Source of the DNA: Harmothoe impar
Lineage: Eukaryota; Annelida; Polychaeta; Phyllodocida; Polynoidae
DNA: 64,000 nucleotides
Direction of reading: 5' to 3'
Assembly: GCA_947462335.1 (NCBI GenBank)
Contig: OX381721.1
Coordinates: 2,418,001-2,482,000 of the forward strand
Shown: piece by piece, positions 8,339 through 61,499 of the stretch
How positions within the stretch are numbered: the first letter of the stretch is position 1
Layout: every line of letters starts with the position of its first letter
The notes under the pieces: model-generated
The model's input: only the letters and a program-made list of their open reading frames with translations
Told to the model about the DNA's origin: nothing
Databases searched by the model: none
Program-made: the position numbers and the translations under genes

Positions 8339-8384
8339 AGATTGTCTCAACAAGAAACTGGAATATGGGCCCCTAAAATAACCT

Positions 8385-21843: not shown

Positions 21844-21967
21844 TCATGCTTGAAGGACTTCTATCTTGTTGGCTTTGCGGAGGATTTTCACGGCCCCTGG
21901 TGGCACTTCGGGCACCCCCGTCTTGAAGCTCACCTCGACTCCCACTCCATTCATCTCCGTGTCCATG
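21844..21967 (-). CDS. myo1b: myosin exon 28: C-terminus and stop
   Basis: Residues 996-1036 and [11 protein letters not shown], then [14 protein letters not shown], aligns with the family end (KRKNNRLLEVAVP). Acceptor CTTGCAG/C. The 3' UTR runs below 21844. By eye I found no AATAAA on the minus strand between 21843 and about 20500; ATTAAA occurs near 20995. Confidence 0.93.
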
Positions 21968-24900
21968 CTGCAAGAGGAAAGGAAATGTTACCTGTGTGAA
22001 TCTAGAGGTGCCTAGAAGGCAGGGCCAGATAAACCACAGCCTTTGGTATCTCAGATGTGGTTCACTGAAGAGGGATCCCATGCCAGACCACCAGCATGAA
22101 GGCCCCAACCTGAGCATATGGGCAGCGGCTGCCAAAACAACTTGATTAAGTGACTGATCACAGCAGTGAGACAAGAGATCCCTCAAGTTTTGTCACATTT
22201 TACGAATCTGGTATGCCCAGAAGTAATATTTAGACTTTTCGCAATCAATTTTCACATCTTAGTAGTTCAGAGTGTATTGATCAGTATTTGTTTGAGTGCA
22301 AGTTATTTTTATCTGACAGCATTACTGGCAACATAAACTTTAATTTGATACCAACTTTGTCAATATTTCTCCAATTTTAACATATTTTTCATCAAAAATG
22401 TAAAAAAAAGAAATTTATGGTGCGGGCGTTGATGAGAAACAAATTTCTTTTTTGAGTGGCTCCCGATAAAGTTAATCTACTCCTTCATACCCACATCATG
22501 AAGGTCCCCACTCACACAGGGGTTGTTTGCTGCCTAGTTCATCCCAGCTGCCTGTTGTTGAGATCTCCCAAAAAGGCCATTTGGAGCCAGCAGTATATGG
22601 GCACCACATTTTATTACAGGAGGCAGCCTGATAACTCCAGAATGAATATTAAAAAAAATAAAAATAAAAATAAAAAACAACAAAAAAACATGAAAAAAAC
22701 AACAACAAAAACAACATGGGGAACACAAATGACAGGTTGAGTACTCACTGAGTGGCAATGTGAACTGCTGGGTGTAGATTGGTGGCATTCTGTATGAGGA
22801 GGAACATCTTGGACGCTACCTCGATGATATGGTCACTACTCAAGAGGAAGTCACCCTTCTTTGTCAGCAGATCACCGTTCTCATGCTGCAACAACAGCCA
22901 CATTGACACACCATTAGCCACATCTTGAATTGATATACTGCTGCCATAAAACCTCTCTGATAAGCCGACCAGATTTTGGGATTTCAAGCCTAATTCTCTT
23001 ATAAATAGCATTCTCTCAAATTGGGTGGTGGGGTTATAAGGGAGGCTATTCATCAAGTAAATCTAGTTTAAGCATGTTTAAATGGCCCCAAATTCAGCTT
23101 ATAAGGGAGATCGGCCTATCAGAGAGGTTTTACAGTACCATACAACCTTGGGTATAAGCCGCCCCCTAACTTTGGGCTTTAGTACTGTAGTAGGTACATC
23201 TAAAAACTCACACGGTGAGGTAGTAGCCGCAGCCTATATGCAAGGTTTTACTGTATATCGTATTGCAATCTGCCCTCTAGACACAACTCAAGAAGAGTTA
23301 GAAACGTGTGCATTTCCCACGGAAAGCACAAGCTGTTTGTACACCAGATAGACACGGGAGATTCTTGAGAATAGTGAACCTTTCTAGTCAAATGTTCAAT
23401 GGTGATGTGTATTTCCCGAGTTTAACTCATGCAAATAACCAGAAGAAATAACCAGTAGTATGAGAATGTGTATTTCTCAAGTTTCACTACAGGAAATGAG
23501 AGGGAATATGACGCAAGACAATGTCCAAAAAACGTAAATGTGCACTTCTTCTTCTCTTGCTAAAAACAGTGTTAAAATAACTTTACAATGGAAAGTCGCT
23601 TATTTTTGTCACATGGGTCTATGATTATGGCACTATCTAGTATTGATGATAACGCTATGGCTCCTACTGACTTTATATGACAAATAAGTAAATAATTGTA
23701 TGAAAAATGTCTAGAAGGCAGGATATAATTACGGTGGTTCTCACCTTTTGGAGATGGAAGATGCAGATTTTGTCGTTGTAGGGACTGAGGGACATGCCCT
23801 GGAACTCGGTGACAGGAATGCGGTACTTGATGACCATGGTGCGCTGGTCCAGCACCAGCAGGGCGTTGGTGCTCATTACCAGCAGCTGGGGCACCATCTA
23901 TACACCAAGGCAGCAAGAAAGGGCACATTTCAGTCAAAACTGTTGGTGCAGTTTTTGAACATTTCTGAATTGTGACTGACAAATACATAAAGACAATCTC
24001 AAAATCCTGCATTCTAATTTACTCTATCTAGATGAGTCAAATGTTGAACTCATATTGCAAACATAATTCTAAGAAATCACGCCTTATGAGACATTTAAAC
24101 AGAAACCAGTATTAAGGCCACTTGCCATCGTTAAAAGTCGGAGGTTATTGGAGGCCAGAGGCCCCTGGCCCATGTTCTTGAACTAAGTTCTATCCTTCAG
24201 TTCAAGAGGATGACACCAGAGGTCCTACCAGGGAAATATTGAATCCCCTCAGAGTTTCCACGCTGTAATGTCTTTTCAGTTACCACTGGGGTATTATTTA
24301 CTTTCTGAGATTTAAATCAGCAGCTATATCTTTCATTGTAATCTTTTAGAAGCTGAGCTTTTCCTCACCTTTCCGTTTTTCCGGTTGACTTTCATGACAA
24401 TATCAGCGAAGACAAGGTGAAGGTCGTTGGTCTCGTGTGCGATTCGTTGCCACTTTGTGTTGTGCCGTAGTCTTACGTAGTCCCCTTTGAACGGATGGGA
24501 AACACTGCGATGGCCAAGAAAGAAAAGGAAAGTTAAAATGCTGTTTTAACATGTAAATTTAAGGTTTGGTTATGAAAACACTTGAATGAAAACGAAAACA
24601 TTGTTTTTACAGTAGTACCCTATTTACTTTTTTATATTTGCACAGCAATAGGCTTGGTGTTACCATCCCCCAGTTATTTCAAGGAAAATGTGAACAGTTC
24701 CAAAGTATCAACAATCAATGAGTGCTTACCTGCGAGGGTATGCAGTTTTCCGCTCCCTGAAGAGATCACTTGCGATGACCTTTTCCCTCATCTTGTTGCG
24801 GAACTGTTGGTCACATTCTTGGCGGTACATCTCACACTGAAAACCAGGACCAAAACTTGATAAAAATATCATTTGTTGTCCTTAGTATTACCTGAACACA

Positions 24901-27900
24901 ACCTCTTTTTATCTTAGCCTAGCTTAAGACCTCACATAAAGACATTTTCACTGATACTAAAATTCTTGAATTTCTGAGATTTGGCTATTTAATTCAATAG
25001 TGTACATACATCTTCGCTCTGCACACATTTTCTCAGATATCTAAAGGTGGCAAAAATCGCGAAAATATGTACAGCAGGACAATATCTACGTTTACAGTAG
25101 TGAAAGTGTCACCTACCCGCCACTGGTGGTGCAGGATACAGAGGTGCTCGTTGGCTGCGTAGAAGAGCGGGGAGCAGGAGGGCCAGGAGCCGTCGATGGG
25201 GGACGGGGAGGGCAGCTGCAGCACCAGGTTCACCAGGAACCGGCGCCGCTACAAACAACAAACAACGAGTTGAAGGCCATATTGTACATCGTATGTGTCT
25301 CTGTCTCAGCAGATCCATACAAGTTCAAATGCTGACAAACCGTATTTCCTGTTAATAAGCCCGGGCTTCAAAAGGTATATTGACCCGGCTCACAAACAGG
25401 GCTAGCTTATAAAAGGGGCCAGCTAATAATATCTTGCAAGGACTGTTTTAAAATGGTTGGTATTTCCTGCTAGATTATACTTATAGAGATAGTAGTTCAC
25501 AAAAAGTAGGAAATTTTAATAAATTGATCAATTATCTGTAGGAAAAGAACATAATTTAATACAGAAATTCCTGTGAATATGCTGGAATTCCTGTAAGAGT
25601 AGCATTTCTGTACTTACCAGGCAGTTGTAGATGAAGCGCACGATCTTGGGGCCGGCGATGGCCCTGAACTTGCGCCTGTACTCCTTGCGGACCTTCCAGC
25701 CGTAGAAGTACTTACGGATCACGCTGACGGCCCACAGACACAGCTGGTGGTACCGCATCTCAGCCAGCACCCGCCGCGCCTACAACACACAGCCACATTA
25801 AGGGGGGGAAGAAGGCGGACTAAGCAGAAGAAAAGTTGTGTTTAAAAATGCCTCCAAAAAGTTTAAAGAGGAATAAAATTAGGGTAGATACCTGAACACA
25901 ACTTTCTTTTTATTGGCCTAAGTTCTTCTATGGATTTGAGATTCTGAATACTAAAATTGTTTAAATATATATTGACCTGTTCAAGGCTGCATAGTCCTTT
26001 ATGTTCTATGCCCTTGGTTGTCATGATACATGAATGCAGCCCTGGTGAGCTAAGTATTCACGTATCCTGATGACAAAGGGTATAAGGGATTGAAGCACTT
26101 TGCAGCTGTTACAGCTTTATTAAAGAAGTGACAGATCCTTATGAGGATTGGTTGTAACTAATAGCTTGAGGCTTTTTTATCCAAGGTAAATAAACAATCG
26201 AGTAATGTCTGATCCATGAAGTTGGAATTCAGCCTTATAATAATAATCATCTCAGAAGGAGAAATGCAGTGGATAATTTTTCTTGTTGAATCGTTTATTT
26301 GATTCCTGCATACCAGGTAAGTTTTTTGTTTAATAAATTAACCAATAATGATTCAGAATATATGAGCAAAAACCTTCTTTTAAAGTCTAGCTGTTCAGAA
26401 TCATGGACAAACTGCAAAATTAACTTGAAAAGTTCAAATGAAGCCCCTGAAGAGAGCACCTCTTTGTGTAAAAATGGGGCTTTTGAACTTCCATCTCTGC
26501 AGAATGATTCCAGAGTTTGAACATGAATTATTTAAATATAGTGCAGAGTGTCGACTAAACATGTGAACCCATCCGTCAATGTTGCGGAGGGTCACTTTGG
26601 GGACAGATTATAAGGGATCTACCTTTAATGAATTATTACAGTATAGACTAGGCACAGGCGTAAACTAGTCAGTAGCTTGGTTATACTGGGGGTGGATTCT
26701 CCCAGTGTAACCAGGATGACCAGTTTAAGCTTGTGAGGCTAGGTGACAGGCACATATTGGATGCCTTCAGAGGATGAAGGGATGGCTAAATTATCAAATA
26801 ACAGTGGGGTGGGGGGAGGTGGATCCTCCTATCCTCTCTGATCTACATTAACACACTGGCTTTATTCACACAACTGGGGGTTTTAAAACATTATATTTCA
26901 ATACTTTTATATGATGATTATAATCGCAGTTGCACAGGTTTTCACACAGTGATTCACACCAAGACCCGGTGTATCATTTTCGTGTTCTGAGTGTTAACCC
27001 TTTACGGACAGCATGGTGCCTCACGGTTCATCTTCAATTGTCGTGATGCATTCATGCATCACCGCCTTATTATTCAATGGTGATGCACTCATACATCATG
27101 CCAACATAAGGGTATAGTATATGAGAGCACTTTGCTGGCCTTAACCCTTTAAGGACGGATGTCACTTAAAGATGACATTTGTCGTCATGATGCACCAATG
27201 CAGCCCCAGCAAGTAACTCACTGGTGCTGCATTGGTGCATCATGCCGACCCTGTGGGAGTGTCTCATCCCTGTATAGTCGGCATGATGCTTGAATGAAGC
27301 CCTGGCAAGTAACCTGCCAGGGCTGCATTCATGCATCATGACAAACAAGGGCATGATGCATTAATGCATGATGCTGCTCTTAAAGGGTTAAATGGTTAAG
27401 CAGTTACAGTGTTGACAGTCGTTACTTGGTTCAACCGTGTAGTTTGCTTGGTGGTGCACCACATCCCAAGCTGGTGCATCGTCCTGCAGTGGTGGTTCAG
27501 TTAGAGGTTGGCACACCAGCAAGTGTTCTACAGCATGTACCTAGACTTTACGCAATCCCAATTTGATGACAGTTCTGTCCCAATTAATATTGAATGAAAA
27601 AAGTGTATTCTAAAAATGTGAAATTTTTTGTGAAATTGAACAAATTCTTTGGAGGCCAAATCACAACCTGAAATGATACTTTTAAGCCCATTCTTCTTTC
27701 CCTTCTTTTGAATAACAATCTTTCCATGTGTTTAGTGGTATTCCCATACTATAACTTTAATAGTTGAGAATATTAAGTGTTAAGTGAGCAAAGAATGTTC
27801 AGAACCATTTATCACAGTTCCTAGGGTAGATTCACCTGGAGTGGGACACTTACTATCAGACGGATGCTTAATTTTGTCGTTATTAAAGTATTTTAAGCTC

Positions 27901-30900
27901 TTAATTTGCAAATAATGGTAAAGTGTAAGCGCTATCCTTTCCAAAAAAACAACGACTAGAAGTTGTTAATTGTACATGAATAACCTGAAATTTGACTGTC
28001 TGTCTCAGGGTATGTGTCCAATTCATGGTGAATCTACCCTATTTTTATGGTGAGAAGATTCACAAAGCTGTACACTTGCTGGTCACCTCCCCCAAGGCTA
28101 TATAGTGTTAGTGAGCAAACAACACAACACGACACATGGAACCCGGGAAACAGTTTACCTTCAGTATCACTGCAAAACGGCCAACGGTGAAACATTAATT
28201 TCTAACCACCAAATCACTACTATTTACTATTTCTAAAATGATTAGAGGCAATGTATTATTCTTTGTTTTTGTAATTTATATCTTTTAATTACTGGTACTT
28301 TTATGTGTATTGCTATTATGGGGGTATATGCTATTCCTTCAAACAGCCACTACCCTGTTGCCAAGAAGCAGGAAATCTCAGAATTTTTGGACAATTTTCT
28401 GTTTGAAATTAATATAACCACTCATGGAAAAATACAGCAATACCATAACCATTGCTACAAAAGTAGCAATAGTGGTACTCCTCTTTAGCTATTGTTTAAA
28501 TAATTTAAAGAATGGCAATTTATCCTATAACTCAGTATGGTACAAATGCTTAGAAATCGTAATATGGGTGTAATAGGGTTCAAAAATCTTAATATTATGA
28601 AAAAAAATGTAACACTTAGCATCCCTGGGGAGTGAAACAATGTTAATGAGAGCGCCGTTTCCGGGATGACAGTGAGTATCTCTACACCCTGCCCAGTTTG
28701 GATGAGTACCGTAAAACCCCGCCTAAAAGAAAAATATTAGGCCTAATAGAAAAGGATTTAAAAATCATTTTCTCTTCAGTATAATGTCTTTAAGCAGAAC
28801 CTCCACTTGATGAAGCACAATTCTGCTTCTTTGGAAAAGAGAACACCGAAAATTCCCGCGCACTAACCCCATGTCACGTATAACCTGCACCCCCAATTCA
28901 GAGGTATCCAATAACCTGTTTTTCGATCTATCATAGTACCATTTTATAGCAATAAAAACCCTTGTATAACCCGCACCCTATATGTTTGGTATAAAAACAA
29001 AGCTGAGTTTGATATATGTACCACTCAAGGGTGGTACGCTGGAATTTACGGTTATACGGCTCATAGGCAGGGATTTACAGTAGTTCACATCACTACATCA
29101 TTACAATACATGTCTGCGATACCCAGCCCCATATATATATAGACAGAGGTCCATGATAATCTGAATGACAGGTTTCTCCATGAGTGTTGCATCGTATCGT
29201 ATCACACGAGGTGGAGTAGAGTGTGATACGATCAGAAGCACTACAAGTGGAGAAACCAGGAGTTCAGACCGATTAGAGTGGATCTCTATATTTATTTTAT
29301 GTGATTCTTGATTAATTTTATCAAAATATACATTTAAAGATTGGTTTCATAGCTATTTTGGTGATGTTATCATGGAGGAACAGGCCATGGAGAATGAGCA
29401 TAAGTTTCTCCACAGGGGTGTGGAGAAGAGCCATTCTAGTATTCAAGTAACTTTGTTTCTCCACATGAAATAAAGTGAGTACCTTCCAGCCTCGTACGTA
29501 GGAGTTGATGACAATTGCAGCACGCCGCATATCCAGGAACCTTTTTCTAGCCTACAACAAACCAAACATAAACCAAACCTAAAAGGAAACTACAAAAACG
29601 TAATAAACCCAAGGTCTAATAATACAGGTGAGAATTTCTGATTGTTCAGGAGAATGTGTAGCAAAGGGTGGACATTAAAGAGGTTGGTCTAGGGAGGGAA
29701 GGAGAGGTGTTAGGAGGCAGAGATGGTAGGAAAGCAGAGAGGAAGGAAAGTAGGTTTAGGGCAGGAAATCAAAGAGAGCAGGAGGGAGGTAGGGAGGTAC
29801 AAGAGGAAAGAGGGAGGAAGGAGGGAGGAAAGAGGGTGTTAAAGAGGGAGTCAAAGAGGGAGTCAAAGAGGGAGTCAAAGAGGGAGTCAAAGAGGGAGTC
29901 AAAGAGGGAGTCAAAGAGGGAGGCAGGTGTAATGGTCACAGAAAAGTCATCTGGAGGAAGTGGGATTCGAACCCACGACCTCTAGACCCATGGGCCTATG
30001 CTTTACCACTGAGCTACATCCCCATCCAACAACTTAACCGCACTGTACGTTACTGGATTGGTATAAATAGGGGTATAGAATTACCCAAGTGATACCCCCT
30101 TACGAGTTTATCACCAAGGTGCGAGTAATCCAAGCCCGTACACAGGCAAAGAAGGAGAGAGGGAGAGAGGGAAGGAGGGAAGCAAAAGAGGGAAGGGGGA
30201 TGGAGGGGAGAGGAAAGGAGGGAAAGAGAAGGGATGGGCAGGCACTGTAGGAAAGGGGGGAAGGAGAAGGGAAGGAAGTAAGGGAAGGTGGGGGGGGGGG
30301 GGGGTTGGGGGAGTACAGCACCCTGCTACCACCAGTCCTGAACAATCAGAACCATGTAAAGTAACTGTTGATGCATACAACACACACACAGTCAAATTAA
30401 AGGTGAATGCTACAACATGACTCCATGATAATCAATGTACTAGGCACCTCTGTATCTAAGGTGCATGAGGGTTTCAGAATGTTGGTCAGGCAAAATGTAA
30501 AGGGCTACATGCAGAATGTGCTGCATCATCCAAATTTGTATTTCAGGGTCTTCAAAAGTTTCAACAGTCTCATCGTCCATGCACAAGAAAGTACATGTGA
30601 GGGAAACCCTAGTTTTATCAGACTATAATTGAGTAAAAAGGACCTAATGCAAATGGCATAGTCTTTGTGAAAACCTTTTTGGCGTGCAGGACAGTCGGTC
30701 CTGCAGCTAGCTAATTTTGCAGGACCAAATAGATTGCTGCAGGATTGGATATCAAAATCAAAGTTTTGCATAATATTTAGAATAGAAAATAGAATAGCAT
30801 TTATCCGAGAAAATAACAACAATAAAACAAAGAACTTGCTCTAATTTGCCTAGAATATTCGAGTGCACTCTAGAACTTGCAACTTCAGTTCTAGTTAGAA

Positions 30901-54900: not shown

Positions 54901-57900
54901 AGACGGGGTAGGACTGCACTCACCTTCTAAGACAGGGTTGGACTGTACTTCTAAGACGGGGTTGGACTGTACTCACCTTCTAAGACAGGGTAGGACTGTA
55001 CTCACCTTCTAAGACAGGGTTGGACTGTACGCACCTTCTAAGACGGGGTAGGACTGTACTCACCTTCTAAGACGGGGTAGGACTGTACGCACCTTCTAAG
55101 ACAGGGTTGGACTGTACTTCTAAGACGGGGTTGGACTGTACTCACCTTCTAAGACGGGGTTGGATTGTACGCACCTTCTAAGACAGGGTAGGACTGTACT
55201 CACCTTCTAAGACAGGGTTGGACTGTACGCACCTTCTAAGACGGGGTAGGACTGTACGCACCTTCTAAGACGGGGTAGGACTGCACTCACCTTCTAAGAC
55301 AGGGTTGGACTGTACTTCTAAGACGGGGTTGGACTGTACTCACCTTCTAAGACAGGGTAGGACTGTACTCACCTTCTAAGACAGGGTTGGACTGTACGCA
55401 CCTTCTAAGACGGGGTAGGACTGTACTCACCTTCTAAGACGGGGTAGGACTGTACGCACCTTCTAAGACAGGGTTGGACTGTACTTCTAAGACGGGGTTG
55501 GACTGTACTCACCTTCTAAGACGGGGTTGGATTGTACGCACCTTCTAAGACGGGGTTGGACTGTACGCACCTTCTAAGACGGGGTAGGACTGTACTCACC
55601 TTCTAAGACGGGGTTGGACTGTACTCACCTTCTAAGACGGGGTTGGACTGTACTCACCTTCTAAGACGGGGTAGGACTGTACTTCTAAGACGGGGTAGGA
55701 CGCACCTTCTAAGACGGGGTTGGACTGTACTCACCTTCTAAGACGGGGTTGGACTGTAGCAGCTGCTCCTTGACGCGGTCTATCTCGTGCCCCTTCCCGG
55801 ACACGGCCGCCACGTACTGCATGATGGCTTTACTCGCCTCTGGAAGCACCAAGACAAATGTGGAGTCAACCTACTGTCGTCTGAATAATATCTATCTAAT
55901 GATATACACAATGAAAGAACAAGGTCGACTACAGTGTAGCAACAGAATAGCAGCTTGCTATTCGCAGTCTCCTTCAGCTCGTGCGATAGCAGCTGCTATA
56001 CTGAACGCGTGCCCAAATAACAACCCATTAGTGCATCAGTAAACAATCAGTGAATCAACCCCCCCTTGTTTATAAAAGGAGCAGTTCCTTAATCAGAGAC
56101 CCACATGGAGTGCTCCACTATTTACCCTAGGTCTGGGACTTAGATCTTAACCCTTTATTGACGCATGTTGCTAAAAGACATTTGTCATCATGATGCACCA
56201 ATGCAGCCCCGGACAACCAGAAAAGGCCCCTAAATTCACTTAGACTGTCACAACTACAAAAGAGCCCCCTAAATTCACTTCGACCTTCACAACCAGAAAA
56301 GGCCCCTAAATTCACTTAGACTGTCACAACTAGAAAAGGGCCCCTAAATTCACTTAGACCTTCACAACCAGAAAAAGCCCCTAAATTCACTTAGACTGTC
56401 ACAATTGGAAAAAGGCCCCTAAATTCATGTAGATTGTCTCAACAAAAAACTGGAATATAGGCCCCTAAAAGCACCTCAACTGACACCAGCACAAAAAGGG
56501 CCCACAACTAGAAAAGGGCCCCTAAATTCACTTGAACCTTCATAATCAGAAAAGGCCCCTAAATTCACTCAGACTGTCACAACTAAAAAAGGGCCCCTAA
56601 ATTCACTTAGACCTTCACAACCAGAAAAGGCCCCTAAATTCACTTAGACTGTCACATCTAGAAAAGGGCCCCTAAATTCACTTAGACTGTCACAAGCAGA
56701 AAAGGCCCCTAAATTCACTGAGACTGTCACAACTAGAAAAGGGCCCCTAAATTCACTTAGACCTTCACAACCAGAAAAGGCCCATAAATGCACTTAGACT
56801 GTCTTAACTGGAAAAGGGCCCCTAAATTCACTTAGAATTTCACAACCAGAAAAGGCCCCTAAATTCACTTAGACTGTCTCAACAATAAAAGGTGCCCCTA
56901 TATTCATTTAGACTGTTAAAACTATAAAAGGGTAGCTAAATTTACCAGAAAAGGCCCCTAAATTCACTTGGACTGTCACAACTAGAAAAGGGCCTCTGAA
57001 TTTGCATGATTTCACTGGATTTGCATTTAATTCACTGAGCCTATTACAACCAGAAAAAGGCCCCTAAATGTATTATGGATGTCACAGCTGGGATAGGGGC
57101 CCCTAAATTCATTTATACCATTATAACAATAAAATGAACAATGGTTCTCAACACAAGAAAGGGGACTCTAAATTCACATGGACTGTCATCATCAGAAAAG
57201 GGTCCCTAAATTCACTTAGACCTTCATAACCAGAAAAGGCCCCTAAATTCACTTAGACTGTCACAACTAGAAAAGGGCCACTTAATTCAATTGGGCCTTC
57301 ACAACCAGAAATGTGATTATGAGATTTCGTTGCCAATATAATGACAGACCACACAAGGCCTCCACTCAGGCACTGCTAGTCCGCCCTCACTGACCGACAC
57401 ACATCTTCTAATGTCAGAGATCCTGTATGGACAGAATCCTTAAAAAGGTATACTTGATTACAAGGATAGACCATTTGAAAATCCAAATTTTCAGGGAAAT
57501 TCCTGAACATTTACATCTCTGTAATTCAGTACCTCCATTGCATGAGCTACTTTACCATGATCTACCTATTTTGAAGTTCTGTTGTATTCGATGATCATTT
57601 AGGAATATTGATACATACATATCGCAAAAATCTGAAAATCAACAAAAAATATCCTGTTTTCCAGAACTTTAGGCTTCACACTTGTATTAGGTTAGACTGA
57701 GTTCAAGGTGTTATTCAAGGCCTACTTCACGTCAAGTCTATGCATCATGGTATAGACTGCATTCTACCTGCTCACCCCGTACCACCCCCGGGTCCTGATA
57801 ACCCCCGCCCTCCCCTGCCTCCCCCTCCTACACACGTTCTGCCCCATGCCCTCCCCATGCTGATTACAACATGACTAATCCCTTTCTGCTCTCATGGATT

Positions 57901-60900
57901 TTCTGTAAATAGTTTCCACCCAGGGCATCAAACAATAACCTAACCATAAAGATGGCAGGAGTTGGTCCCAGGGTACACCGGTTGGTGATGGGGCAATTAT
58001 TTCGAGCTAAAATTTGGTAACCTGTTTAAATCTAGCTTAATAAAATTGCTGATTTAGAACTTTGCTGTTGCCAAATTTACAAGCCTTCCGATCAGAAAGG
58101 CTGCCAAAATAGCAGAGATCCATCTTGCATAGCATGAATATTGGTCCTGAAATGAATTTCATCATCTCTACCCTAAGCCTAAAGTGAACCTGAGAAATTC
58201 AGCGGTCTGATTCCTTTGTTGCTAGGATAAACGGTCCCTTAGCAACAGCAGATTTGCTTAGTAATCTCCCCGAGCAGGCAGATAAATGGACAACCCCTAT
58301 ACACCCCCCTAACCCTGACACCCGTGACTTACCAGATATGACTAGAATAAGTGTGAATGGCCAGCTATAAGCGGTGATGCTTTGCCATGACAACGGTGTG
58401 AGGCTGGCCCTGACCAGCTGTTTCCTTGGTAACCTGTCATCACACCGGGTCAGTTAGGAGGCACACCTCGTTCTGATCTGATGCTCCGTCCATCCCGGTC
58501 CCAGCCATCCCGCCTCCCACCCATCCTTCCCCGACCCACCTCCACCTCCCTCCCTGCCCCACCTCCCCTCTGTCTGCTAACCATCCCCTACTGTCCTCCC
58601 TCCCCTCCCTCCCTGCCCCAGCCACCTCTGTCTGCTCACCCTCCCCTACTGTCCCCCCTCCCCTCCCTCCCTGCCCCAGCCACCTCTGTCTGCTTACCAT
58701 CCCCTACTGTCCCCCCTCCCCTCCCTCCCTGCCCCAGCCACCTCTGTCTGCTCACCCTCCCCTACTGTCCCCCCTCCCCTCCCTCCCTGCCCCAGCCACC
58801 TCTGTCTGCTCACCCTCCCCTACTGTCCCCCCTCCCCTCCCTCCCTGCCCCAGCCACCTCTGTCTGCTTACCATCCCCTACTGTCCTCTCACCCACCTCG
58901 TCCCTCCCTGTCCTTCTGCTGGCTCGTCCACCAATATAATACCCAGAATGGATTCTCTGCAGCAGCCAAGGTGGGTGCACGCGGCCGGGCCCCATCAATC
59001 TCTGAGTAAATGGGTGGTGTGGGTAGAGGGGGGGCACTGAGCTATGATTTGGATATCCATGGCAGCACGATCTTCCGGAGCAAGAGAGGTCGATTGTCAG
59101 AAGGGCTAAAAGGAAGGGATGGTCACTTCACTCCAAGGTTACAAGACGAGGGCGGTCAGCTCATAATCACATTGAGAATTAGGGTATAAGGATTTATACA
59201 GCAATGACTGACCACAAAGCTATATATGATTGTTAGAAACGGTTAATTGGACCGGGTCCATGTACAGATCATCCACATACATAGGGCGCTCAAATGTCCC
59301 AATCTATGTAGGGCGGTAGGGCAATTGCTATCTACCCTCAATGACTGAGTACCCGACCCGGGGCATGGGGTTCCGGGGGCACTTAACCTTGGGTTGGGTA
59401 CCGACTACAAAACTGGCCCCGCAAGCTGTGGCTGTCGATATCCGTAAGATAAGGAAAAGAGGGGTGGTCACTGTGCAAAAGGCTGTGAAACAGGGGGCTG
59501 CTGGAAGAGGCATGGTAACAGGGCTGTTGTCACAGCCAGTTCGTACTCATATTTCATGCCCATTCTTTCTGTAGTAAGCCTCCCAAATTGTTTATATAAC
59601 AATATCAGGCCTAGCAGGAAGCTGTCAGCTGATATCTGAGGAAATTAGGCTGGCTGTTAACTGATAAAGGGAAGTTAGCCTGCTGTCTTATCATGAAACG
59701 GGTGGTCTGTAGTTCTGCCCTTGTTACCTACCCTCAAGGAGCTAGTGCCCTCCCCGGGTGGGGGCCGGCACCAGGAGCCTCTTCCAGCAGGACGGAGCCT
59801 GCCCTTAACCCTGTAAGCACCGCACAGTGCTTTAATGTGCACTACGTGTCACTCTGACAAGTTACTCACCAGGGCTGCATTCATGCATCATGCTGACCCT
59901 ACCGGGTTGATACACTCCTGAAGGGTCGGCATGATGCATGAATGCAGCAGTGGGAAGCAGTAGAGCTATACCTATGCATTATGGCACTAAAGGGCATTAG
60001 AGCACTATGAGGCCCTTAGAGGGTTAAGGGTTGGGGTGAGTTAAAGGGTCAGGGTTGGGCTCTCTATGACTACAGGGCCCACCTCCCCTCCCTGCCCTCG
60101 GTGCACCGTCATGGCTGCAGATAAAGGAGATCTAACCCGACACCTTTCCTCCATCTCTCTAACCAAATTATGTAGTCATACTTTATTCTGTGTGGTATAT
60201 TTTTGCTGAATTTGCGGGAAATCAAAAATACCTGTGAATTTTTTGTATGTTACAGCTTGCTATAAATATCGACATAAAATGCAGATTTTTCACTTTCCGG
60301 CGAAAAAGTATAGCAGTCAATATAAATACTTTTACAATAGCCATGTATGGCTATAACCCCCGTTCATATCCCAAAACCCTACACTGAAGTATCCACCTCA
60401 TCCCCCGTCCACACTCGTGCCTCACCCCACCACAATATGGCTGCTATTAACGCCCACCCACCAATCTCCAACTCCGTATTAAAGAAAAACGCCTCGTTAT
60501 GTGAGATGAAAGACCGTTAAAAGCTCTGCCACCCATTGTTAATGACAACAAAAGGTTAAGATATTAACCTCTGCATTTTTCACACTGAGCAGCCTATTTC
60601 AGGCTCTGCCGTGTTTAGCTCTTTAAGCAATATTTGGCTTCCTGATGCACCAAAGGAGTGCCTGTTAATAACTCACCGGCACTGCATTGGTGCATCATGC
60701 TGATACTTCTGGAGCGTATAAACATGTTGGGGTTACATGAATGCAGCACTGATACATGAATGCAGCACTGATACATGAATGCAGCACTGGCAAGTTAATT
60801 GGCAGGGCTTCATTGTATATCATAGACTAAGGCTTTAATGACAATAAGATGTCTGACCTGTTTTGCCGGAGCCGCTCTCCCCAGAGATGATGACACACTG

Positions 60901-61343
60901 GTCCTGGTTGACGTCACGCATGGACCGGTACGCCAGGTCAGACACGGCGTAGCTGAAGGTCAAACAGAGGTCAAAGTTAACATAGCACTGAAGTCAAGGA
61001 CAAACCGGAGGTTGAACCAAGGTTAACATAGTACTGGGGCAGGTCAAGGACAAACCAGAGGTCAAACCAAGGTCTGACAATGTCTTCAAGCCACTCACTG
61101 TCTTTATTTTTCTCATTCACTTTATGTCTTACTCATGATGCATTTTGTAACTTGAAATAACCGGCGGTGACAGAATTAGTCTTGTCATAGATTACGTTTA
61201 GTAATGATACCAACAAACTCTACTTACATGTGTGGTGGCAGTTCGTAGATGTTCCTACTCCGGTACTCAAAGATGACGTCATGTCTGTAGAGCGGCAGCA
61301 CCTTGTACGGGTTTACAGACACCACCACGTTACCGATATACGT
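21844..61343 (-). CDS. myo1b: Class I myosin (MYO1A/MYO1B type), 28 exons in window, 5' end missing
   Basis: Single-headed actin motor that links membranes to actin. Joining the 28 exons listed below gives one open frame of 1036 residues plus stop: motor about 1-645, four IQ motifs (light-chain or calmodulin sites) about 662-757, then a basic TH1 membrane-binding tail to 1036. Motor signatures present are P-loop GESGSGKT (63-70), switch I NDNSSRFG (115-122), switch [11 protein letters not shown] (344-352), and Glu291 at the TEDS position, 16 residues before the DALCK motif. All introns are GT..AG and phases match throughout. The family usually starts about 45 residues earlier, so one or more 5' exons are absent or unrecognised. 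The order and sequence match vertebrate MYO1B best from memory; MYO1A is the close alternative. Six exon borders carry tandem copies of themselves. Residue numbers in this annotation count from the first codon of exon 1. Confidence 0.95.
22749..22885 (-). CDS. myo1b: myosin exon 27: TH1 tail
   Basis: Residues 951-995 plus two bases. [20 protein letters not shown] closely matches the family SKGDFLFSSDHLIEMATKLY. Acceptor GTTGCAG/CAT, donor ACTCA/GTGAGT. Confidence 0.95.
22936..23137. mobile_element. TACTGTAAAACCTC hairpin MITE in intron 26
   Basis: Left end TACTG..ATAAAACCTCTCTGATAAGCC; the right end in reverse is TACTGTAAAACCTCTCTGAT. Termini resemble the pogo-like element at 526-1100 (TACAGTAAAATCTC). 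About 200 bases, non-coding. It lies between exons 27 and 26. Confidence 0.82.
23745..23897 (-). CDS. myo1b: myosin exon 26: TH1 tail
   Basis: Residues 900-950. [20 protein letters not shown], then [23 protein letters not shown], matching the family pattern of a strand, DQK, and VSMSSQNDGFFAVHL. Acceptor GTATAG/ATG, donor CAAAAG/GTGAGA. 153 bases. Confidence 0.94.
24369..24504 (-). CDS. myo1b: myosin exon 25: TH1 tail, PH-like fold
   Basis: Residues 854-899. [12 protein letters not shown] corresponds to the family VGQPFQGAYLEI, and [14 protein letters not shown] to VAEVVNKINRANGK, part of the putative PH-like lipid-binding fold of TH1. Acceptor ATCGCAG/T, donor GGAAAG/GTGAGG. Confidence 0.94.
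24730..24836 (-). CDS. myo1b: myosin exon 24: TH1 tail
   Basis: Residues 819-853 plus two bases. [20 protein letters not shown], then [13 protein letters not shown], matching the family KLEASELFKDKKALYP. Acceptor TTTCAG/TGT, donor TCGCAG/GTAAGC. Confidence 0.94.
25117..25248 (-). CDS. myo1b: myosin exon 23: TH1 tail
   Basis: Residues 775-818. [13 protein letters not shown] matches the family tail motif MPSLSPIDKNWPS, and ILHHQWR aligns with IFHLWRC. Acceptor TTTGTAG/CGG, donor TGGCGG/GTAGGT. 132 bases. Confidence 0.95.
25618..25779 (-). CDS. myo1b: myosin exon 22: IQ4 and start of tail
   Basis: Residues 721-774. [18 protein letters not shown] (737-754) is the fourth IQ motif; [12 protein letters not shown] then opens the TH1 tail (family: RKFFRANAGKKI). 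Acceptor GTTGTAG/GCG, donor TGCCTG/GTAAGT. 162 bases, phase 0. GC-rich compared with its introns. Confidence 0.96.
26994..27391. mobile_element. GCATCATG nested-palindrome element, complete copy plus truncated copy
   Basis: The complete copy is 27141-27391. Ends are TTAACCCTTTAAGGACGG and, inverted, TTAACCCTTTAAGAGCAGCA. Inside are two palindromes in a row: GATGCACCAATGCAGCCCC around AAGTAACTCACTGG, and GATGCTTGAATGAAGCCCTG around GCAAGTAACCTGCC. A truncated relative fills 26994-27140. Further partial or diverged copies: 5774, 19936, 26003, 32463, 44338, 51009, 51639, 51878, 56148, 59806, 60622, 63742. Confidence 0.85.
27822..28041. mobile_element. TAGGGTAGATTCACC inverted-repeat MITE
   Basis: Left end TAGGGTAGATTCACCTGG; the right end in reverse is TAGGGTAGATTCACCATG. 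A related, truncated copy is at 37797-37976 (shared AGATTCACCTG, CTGTCCGTCTCAGGGTATGT). Non-coding. Confidence 0.8.
29171..29257. repeat. 87-base hairpin
   Basis: GGTTTCTCCA at one end and TGGAGAAACC at the other; inner arms ATCGTATCACAC and GTGTGATACGAT. It reads as one long imperfect stem-loop inside intron 21. Either a tiny inverted-repeat element or a structured transcript part; nothing separates these. Confidence 0.7.
29483..29551 (-). CDS. myo1b: myosin exon 21: IQ3
   Basis: Residues 698-720. ARKRF completes IQ2 and [13 protein letters not shown] begins IQ3. Acceptor TTGTTGTAG/GCT, donor TGGAAG/GTACTC. 69 bases, in phase. A 3.7-kb intron follows, which in vertebrate MYO1B is where alternative IQ exons sit; I saw none here. 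Confidence 0.95.
29838..29928. repeat. 12-bp purine minisatellite (AAAGAGGGAGTC)
   Basis: Seven copies of a 12-base unit inside a polypurine stretch from about 29680. It keeps a frame open (Lys-Arg-Glu-Ser repeats), which I do not take as coding. Confidence 0.92.
29952..30023 (-). other. tRNA-like module of a SINE-type repeat
   Basis: Minus strand carries an A box (TAGCTCAGTGGTAAAGC) and B box (GGGTTCGAATCCCAC) at tRNA spacing. The acceptor stem (GGGGATG with TTCCTCC) is mispaired and the anticodon loop is one base short, so this is not a sound tRNA gene. Flanking words (GTTACTGGATTG, GAGTTTATCACCAAGGTGCG) recur beside the other copies at 45576 and 53043, marking a repeat family. Confidence 0.75.
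30130..30310. repeat. polypurine tract ending in a G18 run
   Basis: Plus strand is almost all A and G (GGAGAGAGGGAGAGAGGGAA style) and ends in about 18 consecutive G at 30287-30304. Strong strand asymmetry; open frames on the minus strand here are low-complexity. Confidence 0.9.
30660..30968. mobile_element. GTCTTTG/GCAGGAC repeat, copy 1
   Basis: Shares TCCTGCAGCTAGC, AATTTTGCAGGACCA, AAGTTTTGCATAATATTTAG and TTTGGAAAGCCCAG with 42564-42917, in the same order. Non-coding. Confidence 0.75.
32463..32622. repeat. GCATCATG nested-palindrome element, diverged
   Basis: Ends AAGGACAGCATGATGCC and, inverted, AACCCTTTGAGGACAGGATA; one central palindrome (CACCAATGCAGCATTGGTGA). Shorter than the complete copy because one of the two palindromes is missing. 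Confidence 0.72.
32938..33087 (-). CDS. myo1b: myosin exon 20: IQ1 and IQ2, border amplified
   Basis: Residues 648-697. Two IQ motifs: [15 protein letters not shown] (662-676) and [12 protein letters not shown] (685-696), which bind calmodulin-type light chains. Acceptor CTGCTGTAG/TTG, donor TTCGCG/GTACGT. 150 bases, phase 0. The acceptor with its pyrimidine tract and about 21 exon bases form part of the 68-bp unit repeated to 35533. Confidence 0.96.
33067..35533. repeat. 68-bp minisatellite copying the 3' splice site of exon 20, about 37 copies
   Basis: Unit 68 bases (62 in copies lacking AAGGGC). On the minus strand each reads CCCTTCCTTGTTCCCCTTCC, TGCTGTAG, then TTGTTCAGCCTGGAGACGTT: a pyrimidine tract, an AG acceptor and the first 21 or so bases of exon 20. 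The copy adjoining the rest of the exon ends at 33087. Entering from an upstream acceptor, the frame reads [10 protein letters not shown] and stops at TGA. 35534-36000 after the array is unrecognised. Confidence 0.97.
36069..36135. repeat. 67-base perfect-stem hairpin
   Basis: GAATTGCGGTTGTTGC and its exact reverse complement GCAACAACCGCAATTC enclose a second stem, AAAATGCC/GGCATTTT, with a 3-base loop. It lies in intron 19, in a context (CTTTAATTTGATACCAA) also found at 22340, so it is likely part of a dispersed element. Confidence 0.85.
36837..36944. mobile_element. CCCAGTGGGCAC inverted-repeat MITE
   Basis: CCCAGTGGGCACAGAA at the left and, inverted, CCCCAGTGGGCACAAAA at the right; the middle is built of CAACATTGAT/ATCAACGTTG words, themselves palindromic. 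It ends 17 bases from exon 19's donor side. Confidence 0.82.
36962..37178 (-). CDS. myo1b: myosin exon 19: converter, border in five copies
   Basis: Residues 575-647. [20 protein letters not shown], then [16 protein letters not shown], then [14 protein letters not shown]: the converter that swings the lever arm. Acceptor ATTGTAG/C, donor CGCACT/GTATGT. 217 bases. The acceptor and first 67 or so bases recur four more times upstream to 37740 in a 134-135 bp tandem unit, each with the same acceptor. Confidence 0.96.
37112..37740. repeat. 134-bp tandem repeat copying the 3' splice site of exon 19, five copies
   Basis: Acceptor edges (last base of each exon-like block) are at 37178 (true), 37313, 37447, 37581 and 37715. 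Each copy carries ATTGTAG plus about 67 exon bases encoding [20 protein letters not shown], then GTACCTACATACCCC-type intron sequence. The outermost copy has several substitutions ([10 protein letters not shown]), the inner ones almost none. Unit length is not a multiple of three. Confidence 0.96.
37797..37976. mobile_element. truncated copy of the TAGGGTAGATTCACC MITE
   Basis: Shares GTAGATTCACCTG, TTCCAGCAAACACTAGAAGT-like and CTGTCCGTCTCAGGGTATGT words with 27822-28041; the right terminus is missing. Lies in intron 18. Confidence 0.75.
38270..38418. repeat. remnant of the 526-type pogo-like MITE
   Basis: GTCCTCCTTATAACGAGATG then TCATTGTA matches the right end of the element at 526-1100, with CTCCTTGTAAGCAAAGTTCC inside. 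The left end is not recognised. Close to the donor of exon 18. Confidence 0.6.
38440..38573 (-). CDS. myo1b: myosin exon 18: SH1 helix region
   Basis: Residues 531-574 plus two bases. Contains [20 protein letters not shown], then [14 protein letters not shown], the helices before the converter. Acceptor CTTGTAG/TCG, donor CCTCGG/GTGAGT. Confidence 0.96.
38608..38979. mobile_element. GTCTTTG/GCAGGAC repeat, copy 2 (diverged)
   Basis: Starts GCAGTCTTTGCAAAAAC and ends with TCTCACAGAGACTG; holds several TGCAGGACCGAATGTCCTG-like blocks on both strands. Same family as 30660 and 42564, with different interior. A further fragment is at 63540-63615. Confidence 0.62.
39360..39415 (-). CDS. myo1b: myosin exon 17: loop 2 region
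   Basis: Residues 512-530, [19 protein letters not shown]: the basic surface loop (loop 2) that touches actin, then the PPTAGSQFK motif found in MYO1A/B. Acceptor TTTAG/GT, donor TTCAAG/GTGAGA. 56 bases. Confidence 0.95.
39793..39907 (-). CDS. myo1b: myosin exon 16
   Basis: Residues 474-511 plus one base. [20 protein letters not shown] matches the family [20 protein letters not shown]. Acceptor CTGCAG/GTG, donor CTGAAG/GTCAGT. Confidence 0.96.
39934..40153. mobile_element. TACCGTAAATTCTC hairpin element
   Basis: TACCGTAAATTCTCTTATAG at the left; TCCAAATTCTCGGATATAAA in reverse at the right. Contains GCGGCTTATATGC-type words, as do many small elements here. It overlaps no exon (intron 15). 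Confidence 0.6.
40498..40860. repeat. 154-bp tandem repeat copying the 5' splice site of exon 15, three copies
   Basis: Donor-side edges at 40808 (true), 40654 and 40500, exactly 154 apart. Each copy has about 50 exon bases (GACAAGACGCTCCACCACGG on the minus strand) with the GTGAGT donor, preceded by a CTGTTAG that could act as an acceptor. A 50-base copied exon would shift the frame. Confidence 0.95.
40808..41002 (-). CDS. myo1b: myosin exon 15: actin-binding lower domain, border triplicated
   Basis: Residues 409-473. Contains [21 protein letters not shown] and ends with FRLVHYAGM. Acceptor TTTGCAG/AAT, donor GGCATG/GTGAGT. 195 bases, phase 0. About 50 bases of the exon end with the donor recur twice further downstream (donors before 40654 and 40500) in a 154-bp tandem unit. 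Confidence 0.96.
42217..42430. repeat. long imperfect inverted repeat
   Basis: Arms of about 85 bases: CCTTGACCTTGTACTGGGTT and AAACCAGCGAGCAGGAACCG at the left match, in reverse, GACCTTGACCTTTTACTGGG and AAACCAGAGAGCGGGAACCG from the right arm. The loop is about 40 bases. No terminal motif typical of the other hairpin families was seen. Confidence 0.72.
42564..42917. mobile_element. GTCTTTG/GCAGGAC repeat, copy 3 with both ends
   Basis: Left end CAGTCTTTGCGAAAAC and right end, inverted, CAGTCTTTGCCAAATC, then TGCAGGAC/GTCCAGCA words. About 354 bases, no coding capacity. Best copy of this family in the window. Confidence 0.78.
44338..44465. repeat. GCATCATG element, partial
   Basis: CATGAATGCAGCCCTGGAGA and GCCAGAGCTGCATTCATGCA form the second palindrome of the family; the first palindrome is absent. 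Confidence 0.72.
44699..44761 (-). CDS. myo1b: myosin exon 14
   Basis: Residues 388-408, [21 protein letters not shown], matching the family segment after the relay helix. Acceptor TTTCAG/GGC, donor GAGAAG/GTAAGT. 63 bases, phase 0. Confidence 0.95.
45053..45110 (-). other. decayed tRNA-like sequence
   Basis: Minus strand has GGGCACTGGACTTTAGATCC and GATCGCCGGATCAAATCCCA, resembling the anticodon arm and T arm of a tRNA with a degenerate B box. The 5' half is poorly preserved. Confidence 0.4.
45378..45482 (-). CDS. myo1b: myosin exon 13: relay helix
   Basis: Residues 353-387. [20 protein letters not shown] is a near-exact match to the family relay helix [20 protein letters not shown], followed by [14 protein letters not shown]. 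Acceptor CTGCAG/CAC, donor AAGGAG/GTCAGT. 105 bases, phase 0. Confidence 0.97.
45576..45646 (-). other. tRNA-like module of a SINE-type repeat
   Basis: Minus strand: perfect A box TAGCTCAGTGGTAGAGC and B box GGGTTCGAGTCC. The T stem and acceptor stem are not properly paired, so it is a tRNA-derived repeat. Followed on the plus strand by GTTTATCACCATAGCGCGAG, the same flank as at 30100. Confidence 0.72.
45834..45899 (-). CDS. myo1b: myosin exon 12: switch II
   Basis: Residues 331-352. Ends in switch II and relay start, [12 protein letters not shown]. The exon begins with the bases GTAAG directly after CAG, so the acceptor region also looks like a donor; the in-frame use as acceptor restores family sequence ([14 protein letters not shown]). 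Donor TTTGAG/GTAAGT. Confidence 0.95.
46097..46183 (-). CDS. myo1b: myosin exon 11: DALCK helix
   Basis: Residues 302-330. [15 protein letters not shown] matches the family YARDALAKNLYSRLF. Acceptor TTGAACAG/GCC, donor ATACGG/GTAAGT, 87 bases in phase 0. The acceptor and first 15 or so exon bases recur once at 46228-46258, 59 bases upstream. Confidence 0.95.
46168..46258. repeat. 59-bp duplication of the 3' splice site of exon 11
   Basis: CCCTTGCATAGGTGGCCTGT (exon edge and acceptor) recurs as CCCTTGGATAGGTGGCCTGT 59 bases away. The extra acceptor edge is at 46242. 59 is not a multiple of three. Confidence 0.93.
46432..46550 (-). CDS. myo1b: myosin exon 10: TEDS-site segment
   Basis: Residues 262-301. 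Glu291 sits 16 residues before the DALCK motif of exon 11, the TEDS position, so an acidic residue replaces the phosphorylatable Ser/Thr of amoeboid class I myosins. Acceptor CTTACAG/AG, donor GTAGAG/GTACGT. A tandem repeat of about 38 bp begins some 17 bases upstream of the acceptor (46568-46700). Confidence 0.94.
46568..46700. repeat. 38-bp tandem repeat beside exon 10
   Basis: GGCATAAAGTCATGGTTTAC recurs four times at about 38-40 bases. It starts about 17 bases upstream of the exon 10 acceptor and does not include the splice site. Confidence 0.9.
46701..47556 (-). other. rest of intron 9
   Basis: No exon seen. A C run of about 18 at 47368-47383 and short T runs. GGTTTAGGTTACCCGACC near 46731 resembles other intron words (GGTCGGCC near 49290), possibly a dispersed repeat. 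Confidence 0.5.
47557..47704 (-). CDS. myo1b: myosin exon 9: motor core
   Basis: Residues 213-261 plus one base. Contains [12 protein letters not shown], matching the conserved AAVLKLGNIEF of class I myosins. Acceptor TTTCAG/ACA, donor GAAGATG/GTAAGT. A C14-18 homopolymer lies about 180 bases downstream in the following intron. Confidence 0.95.
48177..48286 (-). CDS. myo1b: myosin exon 8: motor core
   Basis: Residues 176-212, from [19 protein letters not shown] to KETFLKTK. It corresponds to the variable loop region of the upper motor domain. Acceptor TTTACAG/AA, donor ACCAAG/GTCAGT. Ends in phase 0. Confidence 0.94.
48997..49081 (-). CDS. myo1b: myosin exon 7: motor core
   Basis: Residues 148-175 plus one base. 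SRV, then a charged stretch, then [14 protein letters not shown], which matches the family motif ERNFHVFYQLLSGA. Acceptor TTGCAG/TCG, donor TTTCTAA/GTAAGT. Confidence 0.95.
49823..49836 (-). CDS. myo1b: myosin exon 6: 14-nt microexon (YLLEK)
   Basis: Fourteen bases that finish one Tyr codon and add LLEK (residues 143-147). The family sequence here is NYLLEKSRV; exon 5 ends at TN and exon 7 starts at SRV, so this microexon supplies exactly the missing residues. Acceptor TGTCTAG/AT, donor GAAAAG/GTAAGT. Skipping it would shift the frame. Confidence 0.93.
50113..50176 (-). CDS. myo1b: myosin exon 5: motor core
   Basis: Residues 122-142 plus one base, starting [17 protein letters not shown], the conserved stretch after switch I. 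Acceptor TTTGCAG/GGG, donor AAATT/GTAAGT. 64 bases. Confidence 0.94.
51009..51226. mobile_element. GCATCATG nested-palindrome element, nearly complete
   Basis: Starts CCCTTTAAGGACGGATGTTA, then GATGCACCAATACAGCCCCT mirrored across GGGTAACTCGCTGG, then a second, weaker palindrome ending at TGCATCATGATGACC. The end terminus is degraded. In intron 3, 290 bases from exon 4. Confidence 0.8.
51516..51562 (-). CDS. myo1b: myosin exon 4: switch I
   Basis: Residues 106-121, [16 protein letters not shown], which includes switch I (NxNSSRF), the loop that contacts nucleotide phosphate and magnesium. Only 47 bases. Acceptor TTTTGCAG/CC, donor CGATTT/GTAAGT. Ends in phase 0. Confidence 0.95.
51639..52125. 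mobile_element. two more GCATCATG elements in tandem
   Basis: 51639-51790 has only the first palindrome (GATGCACCAATGCAGCCCTA/CTCGCCGGTGCTGCATTGGT). 51878-52125 has both, with ATGACATTTGTCGTCATGAT at the start and AATGCATTATGCTGTCCTCA at the end. Confidence 0.8.
52661..52735. promoter_or_regulatory. six AGGTCA-type half-sites at 11-bp pitch (DR5 spacing)
   Basis: Half-sites start at 52667, 52678, 52689, 52700 (AGGTTA), 52711 and 52722, each separated by five bases (GGTAA, GGTGA, GTACA). Direct repeats of AGGTCA with five-base spacing are the classic retinoic acid receptor site. It may equally be a chance 11-bp microsatellite; sequence alone does not show binding. Confidence 0.5.
53043..53110 (-). 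other. tRNA-like module of a SINE-type repeat
   Basis: Minus strand: GTGGTGTAAAGGTTAGCATA as A box and GTGTTCGATTCCCGG as B box. Flank GTTACTGGATTGATAAAGGA matches the flank at 30051. Stems are imperfect; not a functional tRNA by eye. Confidence 0.65.
53494..55757. repeat. 29-bp minisatellite copying the 5' splice site of exon 3, about 75-80 copies
   Basis: On the minus strand the unit is CAGTCCAACCCCGTCTTAGA AG/GTGAGTA: 22 exon bases and 7 intron bases. Many copies keep GTGAGT; others have GTGCGT, and some units are shortened. The true exon border is the copy at 55735-55756. Reading past the first donor gives EGEYSPTPS and then TAG. Larger blocks such as 54870-55080 and 55270-55480 look alike, showing higher-order copying. 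Confidence 0.97.
55735..55839 (-). CDS. myo1b: myosin exon 3: ends in SNPVLE, border amplified
   Basis: Residues 71-105. Encodes the helix after the P-loop and ends with the near-invariant myosin motif LLQSNPVLE. Acceptor CTTCCAG/AG, donor TTAGAAG/GTGAGTA. The last 22 exon bases plus the first 7 intron bases form the 29-bp unit of the long minisatellite at 53494-55757, so this exon has a row of copied donor sites downstream of its own. Confidence 0.96.
56148..56210. repeat. half GCATCATG element cut by satellite
   Basis: TTAACCCTTTATTGACGCAT through GATGCACCAATGCAGCCCCGG matches the left part of the family exactly to the centre of the first palindrome, where sequence switches to the satellite word ACAACCAGAAAAGGCCCC. 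Confidence 0.8.
56211..57312. repeat. 37-bp satellite, array 2
   Basis: Same unit as 6476-8338, and the same irregular insert in the same place (TGATTTCACTGGATTTGCAT, then AATGAACAATGGTTCTCA). About 30 units. The shared irregularity means the arrays are copies of one parent, not independent expansions. Confidence 0.93.
58558..58890. repeat. 58-bp pyrimidine-rich minisatellite, about 6 copies
   Basis: CAGCCACCTCTGTCTGCTCA and CCCTACTGTCCCCCCTCCCC recur at 58-base spacing. It keeps a 152-codon low-complexity frame open, which I reject as coding. Confidence 0.93.
59806..60028. mobile_element. GCATCATG nested-palindrome element, diverged
   Basis: Starts TTAACCCTGTAAGCACCGCA and ends, inverted, TTAACCCTCTAAGGGCCTCA. 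The middle holds GCTGCATTCATGCATCATGC and GGCATGATGCATGAATGCAG facing each other. Together these make one large hairpin. Confidence 0.8.
60622..60838. repeat. GCATCATG element, degraded
   Basis: CTGATGCACCAAAGGAGTGC and ACTGCATTGGTGCATCATGC flank AACTCACCGG. A short triplicated ACATGAATGCAGCACTGAT follows. It ends about 20 bases from the donor of exon 2. Confidence 0.7.
60858..60952 (-). CDS. myo1b: myosin exon 2: P-loop
   Basis: Residues 39-70 plus one base. Contains the ATP-binding P-loop GESGSGKT at 63-70; most vertebrate class I myosins have Ala where this has Ser67, a conservative change. The intron after it splits the codon of the Glu that follows the P-loop. Acceptor CCTTCAG/C, donor ACAG/GTCAGA. 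Confidence 0.95.
60957..61075. promoter_or_regulatory. three AGGTCA-type direct repeats with 5-bp spacing
   Basis: Pairs at 60957/60968 (AGGTCA-AACAG-AGGTCA), 61009/61020 (AGGTTG-AACCA-AGGTTA) and 61059/61070 (AGGTCA-AACCA-AGGTCT), inside a degenerate repeat of about 50 bases in intron 1. Spacing suits a retinoid receptor dimer. Function is not shown. Confidence 0.42.
61228..61343 (-). CDS. myo1b: myosin exon 1 in window (motor N-terminal part)
   Basis: Encodes residues 1-38, beginning [14 protein letters not shown], the strand that opens the motor core in all class I myosins. The 3' splice site reads TTTACAG/ACG and the 5' site CAT/GTAAGTA. It starts in phase 0 and ends in phase 2. The missing family N-terminus (about 45 residues) must lie upstream. 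The first 17 or so bases and the splice acceptor recur four more times immediately upstream (61344-61499). Confidence 0.95.
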
Positions 61344-61499
61344 CTGTAAATAAACACACCACGTTACCGATATACGTCTGTAAATAAACACACCACGTTA
61401 CCGATATACGTCTGTAAATAAACACACCACGTTACCGATATACATCTGTAAATAAACACGTTACCGATATACGTCTGTAAAGTAAACAAACCATGTTAC
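61325..61499. repeat. 34-bp repeat copying the 3' splice site of exon 1, five copies
   Basis: ACGTTACCGATATACGTCTG recurs from 61327, 61361, 61395, 61429 (with one change) and 61458. On the minus strand each unit is TTTATTTACAG/ACGTATATCGGTAACGT. 34 is not a multiple of three, and a distal acceptor leads to TAA soon after. Confidence 0.95.

Follow-up and report, generated by a model that had tools for sequence, protein, structure and literature searches.

Introduction

Minisatellites whose repeat unit spans an exon-intron junction are known from amphioxus, where they were named 'mirages' and are described for Adh3, TnC, the globin genes BflGb6 and BflGb9, and PGBD5 (PMC3087553, PMC3902484). 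Their units range from 10-72 bp in Adh3 to 150-160 bp in the globins, and amphioxus RT-PCR is said to suggest that mirages leave splicing undisturbed (PMC3087553). Related structures occur in human DNA. In IFI6 (6-16; Turri 1995, as cited in PMC4526556) minisatellite units supply 5' splice sites, and in segmental duplications internal tandem repeats at exon-intron boundaries are reported with 27 intron modifications (PMC2812944). Among annelids, the accessible part of a report on earthworm metallothionein genes describes large minisatellite arrays in the first intron, and does not describe them as splice-junction copies (PMC12783039). A search of open-access titles and abstracts returned no report of junction minisatellites in an annelid, which is weak evidence of absence.

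Here we analyse a class-I myosin gene of Myo1a/b type (21844..61343, minus strand) in a 64,000-nucleotide stretch of DNA, referred to below as the window, in which six splice junctions are tandemly copied. The arrays resemble amphioxus mirages in being tandem repeats across an exon border at either a 3' or a 5' site, in keeping AG or GT in many copies and in overlapping unit sizes, so that the likeness to the amphioxus Adh mirages drawn in a preliminary description of this DNA holds, and extends to the minisatellites described for TnC, globin and PGBD5. They differ in their probable annelid host, in number, since a single gene carries six of them and two of the six reach 37 and 80 copies, and in being known here from the DNA of a single haplotype. 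With IFI6 they share units that carry 5' splice sites, but in IFI6, according to the citing paper, repeat units serve as alternative donors, unlike what is predicted for the myosin gene. With the human segmental duplications they share minisatellites at exon-intron boundaries; there, in young paralogues, repeat variation gives rise to new introns or alters coding repeats, whereas the exon structure of the myosin gene is kept. The earthworm genes have in common with it the phylum and the large intronic arrays. The myosin arrays are real and belong to a known kind of structure; they occur in a phylum new to it and are unusually dense, so that a phenomenon reported for lancelets now has six examples within one gene of a distant phylum.

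Results and discussion

The myosin gene was rebuilt by hand on the minus strand, with exon borders placed from translations, as 28 exons with GT-AG borders running from 61343 to 21844. Verification of all exon borders of this model found AG upstream in 28/28 cases and GT downstream in 27/27, and the open frame of 1036 codons is intact to the stop at 21844. Exon numbers are those of the preliminary description, whose 28-exon gene agrees with ours in exon count, numbering and stop position. Upstream of exon 1, a simple motif search of the window gave no coding exon, and the start of the coding sequence either lies outside it or was missed. The 1036-aa protein contains Myosin_head (4e-243), IQ (2e-7) and Myosin_TH1 (1e-26) domains, all exceeding their cut-offs; this motor, IQ motif and TH1 tail make it a class-I myosin, and its top-scoring relatives among solved structures are myosin-Ib (PDB, E 1e-297). 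With the exon-proximal sites used, it aligns over its full length to its relatives, at 48-70% identity among the best 120 of 7978 listed. Exon 6 is a micro-exon of only 14 nt (49836-49823, minus strand) in the motor domain, encoding most of YLLEK.

Within those 120 rows Paralvinella palmiformis scores highest, with 70% identity, followed by further rows at 65-69%, by octopus, Solemya and Lingula at 63-64%, and by three Branchiostoma rows at 55-57%. A tree of 27 rows (the window protein and 26 hand-chosen from the best 120) groups the window protein with Paralvinella, Dimorphilus and three other rows with support 99/98, with the lancelets apart. Both named members of this group are annelids, and the gene is most likely annelid itself, a judgement that rests on this one gene. 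As the protein groups with annelids and not with amphioxus, the arrays would be mirages in another phylum, beyond the cephalochordates, which are the range of mirages in the papers and not a defining property.

We scanned the whole gene by comparing 60 bp around each of the 55 junctions with up to 1500 bp of adjoining intron, taking the best local match and scoring it against 40 shuffles. All six top-scoring matches cross their junction, with z values against shuffled introns of 52 (exon 19), 47 (exon 15), 34 (exon 20), 33 (exon 1), 28 (exon 3) and 17 (exon 11). Across the remaining 49 junctions the best crossing match reaches a z of only 2.6 (exon 15, 3' side), and matches that do not cross reach 8.2 (exon 2), 6.0 (exon 10) and 4.3 (exon 16), the first two being wholly intronic beside the 3' site and the third lying inside the exon end. 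Exons 10 and 2 have purely intronic repeats next to their 3' sites, at 46569-46712 and 61046-61066 respectively, which leave these junctions uncrossed.

Junction-spanning copies are thus present at 6/55 junctions, those of exons 1, 3, 11, 15, 19 and 20, and in each the tandem unit spans the exon-intron boundary. Both kinds of boundary are affected, with four 3' sites and two 5' sites, and all six arrays lie on the minus strand of the window. The four at 3' sites are those of exons 1, 11, 19 and 20. The exon 1 array (61323..61499) has five copies of a 34-bp unit with 21 exon bases, one copy carrying a 5-bp deletion, and the true site is at 61343. At exon 11 there are two copies (46256-46226 and 46197-46167, within 46167..46256; true site 46183), each of 31 bp made up of 14 intron and 17 exon bases, which are 93.5% identical (E 1.6e-9) at a spacing of 59 bp and are absent from the Tandem Repeats Finder (TRF) list. 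The exon 19 array (37108..37741; true site 37178) comprises five copies, four of them full, of a 134-bp unit with 71 exon bases, and the exon 20 array (33067..35533; true site 33087) comprises 37 full copies of a 68-bp unit, with 63-bp variants, that includes 20-21 exon bases. Of the arrays at 5' sites, that of exon 3 (53494..55758) is built from 80 copies of a 29-bp unit consisting of 23 exon bases and GTGAGT, with 16/80 copies shorter than 29 bp by length count and the last true exon base at 55735. That of exon 15 (40481..40869) has three copies, two of them full, of a 154-bp unit with 62 exon bases, and its last true exon base is at 40808. The intron part of the units ranges from 6 to 92 bases, and its extent is not constant among arrays.

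All six tandemly copied exon borders of the preliminary description are thus present, with copy numbers about as claimed and with the same split between 3' and 5' sites in the 28-exon model. Exon bases are indeed copied, over a range of 17-71 in place of the 15-67 given there. As had been claimed, the copies do accumulate towards the intron and one complete exon remains, but this is not a separate rule, because any tolerated tandem duplication across a junction gives that geometry. From the anatomy of the gene, such a duplication would leave one junction by the exon body and one deeper in the intron, and if the junction by the exon body were used the protein would be unchanged.

An origin in which short direct repeats slipped or exchanged unequally predicts a second occurrence of the exon-edge sequence at the distal end of the array. 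For five arrays (exons 1, 3, 15, 19 and 20) the 24 outermost exon bases were compared with the 40 bases at or beyond the far end, with 27,476 intron positions as background. Just past the far end of the exon 19 array lies GTTCCTGTAC (37752..37761, minus strand), identical over 10/10 bp to the exonic unit end that runs from 37118 down (p 4e-5). At the outer end of the exon 1 array, GTAACATGGT (61490..61499, minus strand) matches the exonic unit end GTAACGTGGT, from 61333 down, at 9/10 positions (p 0.007). At exon 3 the far end gives a core of 7 bp (p 0.025) that may be a decayed copy, and the matches at exon 15 (AGAACC, p 0.09) and exon 20 (7/8, p 0.16) both have p above 0.05. The combined p is 1.4e-6, most of it carried by exon 19. 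The sequence past the exon 19 and exon 1 repeats is, as judged by eye, unlike exon, so these repeats look native and not like remnants of further copies. At least two arrays, those of exons 19 and 1, are thus bounded by short direct repeats of which the exon holds one arm and the intron the other, as ordinary slippage predicts, and these repeats point to slippage or unequal exchange in preference to a process linked to splicing. The evidence does not support a special seeding process, and none linked to splicing is needed.

We consider it probable that the six are mirage-type junction minisatellites which began as local duplications by slippage or unequal exchange and were tolerated through exon-proximal splicing. 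Each array would start as a local tandem duplication whose segment happens to hold a splice site, produced when a short repeat at the exon edge pairs with one in the nearby intron during slippage or unequal exchange. This founding step is supported by flanking direct repeats for exons 19 and 1, and is presumed by extension for the other arrays. Later unequal exchange would have amplified some arrays, to 37 and 80 units. Duplications within exons would alter the protein and be purged, and those crossing a junction would survive, with splicing continuing at the copy beside the exon body. If so, the minisatellite seed, a short repeat common to the exon and the intron, is still readable, which bears on the origin of the arrays and of new introns. 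Counting against this explanation is a modest excess of seeds at junctions, which slippage at random places leaves unexplained.

This excess was estimated with a random-seed null in which the founding unit of each array is placed at random in the gene, excluding placements wholly within exons. For the 19 TRF arrays in the gene, with rows merged by hand, 0.75 junction-spanning arrays are expected and 5/19 are observed (P 4e-4). When exon 11 and five other duplications below the TRF list are included, the count is 6/25 (P 6e-4, or 3e-3 if these six sub-TRF duplications are given 150-bp units). A coverage test gives no such excess, as 6/55 junctions lie in repeats against 302/1405 intron points, a difference in the opposite direction (two-sided p 0.06), and with the junction arrays removed from the background the comparison is 6/55 against 78/1181 intron points (one-sided p 0.16). 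Coverage counts the growth of arrays, and the seed null is therefore preferred, but coverage is still evidence against an excess. Furthermore, the gene was picked for being striking, and 1000 genes at 6e-4 each would provide one such gene with probability 0.44. The preliminary description argued that six hits on junctions would seldom come about by chance. This argument is only partly supported, as the seed null favours it while the coverage test and the number of genes from which one could be picked both weaken it. An excess of junction arrays beyond chance in this gene is suggestive only, and not secure.

The excess might instead reflect survival. Junction arrays may not be seeded more often but may outlast intronic ones, the terminal unit, with its exon under purifying selection, acting as a permanent master for re-expansion and homogenisation while purely intronic arrays decay; we regard this as possible but doubtful. 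The excess of junction seeds agrees with it, and so does the uniformity of the junction arrays, which have TRF matches of 89-98% (mean 92.8, n=5, without exon 11) compared with means of 87.0 for other arrays in the gene (n=8) and 86.3 for those outside it (n=15), all with units of at least 25 bp. The difference has a one-sided p of 0.023 against all others and of 0.06 against the gene's others, and is to be read with an array list and a 25-bp cut that were both chosen by hand. A permanent master should, however, have made copies nearer the true one more like it, and this is not seen, similarity to the true copy having no trend with distance in exon 3 (rho -0.11, p 0.34) or exon 20 (rho 0.17, p 0.31). 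A polarity of growth was rejected in these two arrays on the same grounds, and adjacent copies in them are no more similar than remote ones, with no clean higher-order period, which counts against the explanation preferred above in its amplification step. Nor do the exon parts of the copies have a clear deficit of variable sites. In exon 20 the per-site divergence is 0.003 in the exon part and 0.048 in the remainder, but this was rejected as evidence of selection since the gap comes mostly from one 5-bp deletion and a few amplified variants; the count of sites with a substitution (1/20 in the exon part against 9/48) is unconvincing, and exon 3 has no such pattern. We also entertain, tentatively, the broader view that junction minisatellites are general in some invertebrate genomes and not peculiar to amphioxus, exon-pinned arrays persisting and growing where free intronic ones die.

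Seeding at junctions by splicing or transcription, for instance through R-loops, breaks at splice sites or RNA-templated repair, would account for the P of 4e-4 to 3e-3 under the random-seed null in this gene, for the involvement of both 5' and 3' sites and for the similar structures in amphioxus genes. We nevertheless consider it unlikely, as the coverage test lacks a junction excess, the bounding direct repeats account for at least exons 19 and 1, and the intron part of the units varies as widely as described above. The 14 other arrays are also not clearly near exons (median distance, P 0.13), and their apparent crowding was rejected, as 4/14 lie no more than 100 bp away where 2.2 would be expected (P 0.17). 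U1 pairing ends at +6, and the exon 3 unit was considered as a footprint with that end, an idea that was rejected because the other units do not share it.

The arrays would confront the splicing machinery with a large number of decoys. In full copies, the true one included, GT or AG is kept in 72/80 for exon 3, 2/2 for exon 15, 37/37 for exon 20, 5/5 for exon 1 and 4/4 for exon 19, so that, as in mirages, splice signals persist in many copies of five arrays. This retention gives no sign of selection against decoy splice dinucleotides, which are kept about as well as other positions. The true exon 3 site, AAG|GTGAGT, has 48 exact repeats among the decoys downstream, and one base, which other copies have too, separates the true exon 20 site from the consensus copy. 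For each of 118 decoys we translated the gene as it would read if that decoy replaced the true site, excluding decoys that had lost GT or AG (eight in exon 3). A premature stop results with 117/118, comprising 81/82 in exons 1, 3, 11, 15 and 19 and 36/36 in exon 20. The lone open decoy is the nearest exon 19 3' site, at 37313, which lies in frame 135 nt upstream of the true site. The same decoy breaks a rule, otherwise consistent with the TRF periods and the exon 11 spacing, that unit length is never a multiple of three, and the rule was rejected.

As all but one of the examined decoys break the frame, the exon-proximal site must be chosen from among near-identical ones, and since local sequence hardly differs between the copies, position and not local strength must decide. 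The cell would, on this evidence, use the exon-proximal sites. Exon definition, where splice sites are paired across the exon by factors (PMC3488318), would fit such a choice. The gene offers a direct test of exon definition, because among up to 80 locally near-identical sites, as far as examined, the frame survives with the exon-proximal one and with a single decoy. If junction minisatellites are indeed general in some invertebrate genomes, genes with them are natural assays in which the spliceosome picks one among dozens of near-identical sites by position alone, and are raw material for new introns.

That the arrays are instead functional, in regulating splicing or producing isoforms, seems improbable with premature stops in 117/118 decoys. 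The open exon 19 decoy is the best candidate for such a role, as its use is predicted to add 45 residues, and human IFI6 employs two minisatellite units as splice donors (PMC4526556), but this sole in-frame insertion would land in the motor domain. That the copies are false products of assembly is very improbable, although one amphioxus mirage seems to be aberrantly assembled in the genome draft (PMC3087553), since substitutions and deletions distinguish the copies in varied combinations and the six units are unrelated; exact copy numbers may still be wrong.

The window holds many other repeats besides the junction arrays. A 37/75-bp minisatellite (CCCTAAATTCACTTAGAC...) forms arrays both at 6492-8324, far from the gene, and at 56213-57311, in intron 2, and its presence at two distant places indicates a dispersed family that was not born in place. 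In a scan of 10 open reading frames, a part of those elsewhere in the window and in the introns, 0/10 matched Pfam, giving no sign of a second gene. Similar peptide strings (e.g. MMHQCST.ELL...ALVHHDD) recur in translations of several introns, at 51859-52062, 27169-27360, 32502-32630 and 59865-59978, a pattern suggestive of a dispersed repeat element. Beyond the gene, arrays of a 39-bp unit occupy much of 31-3410, and a satellite-like array of several dozen copies of a 179-bp unit extends over about 6 kb (8383-14723).
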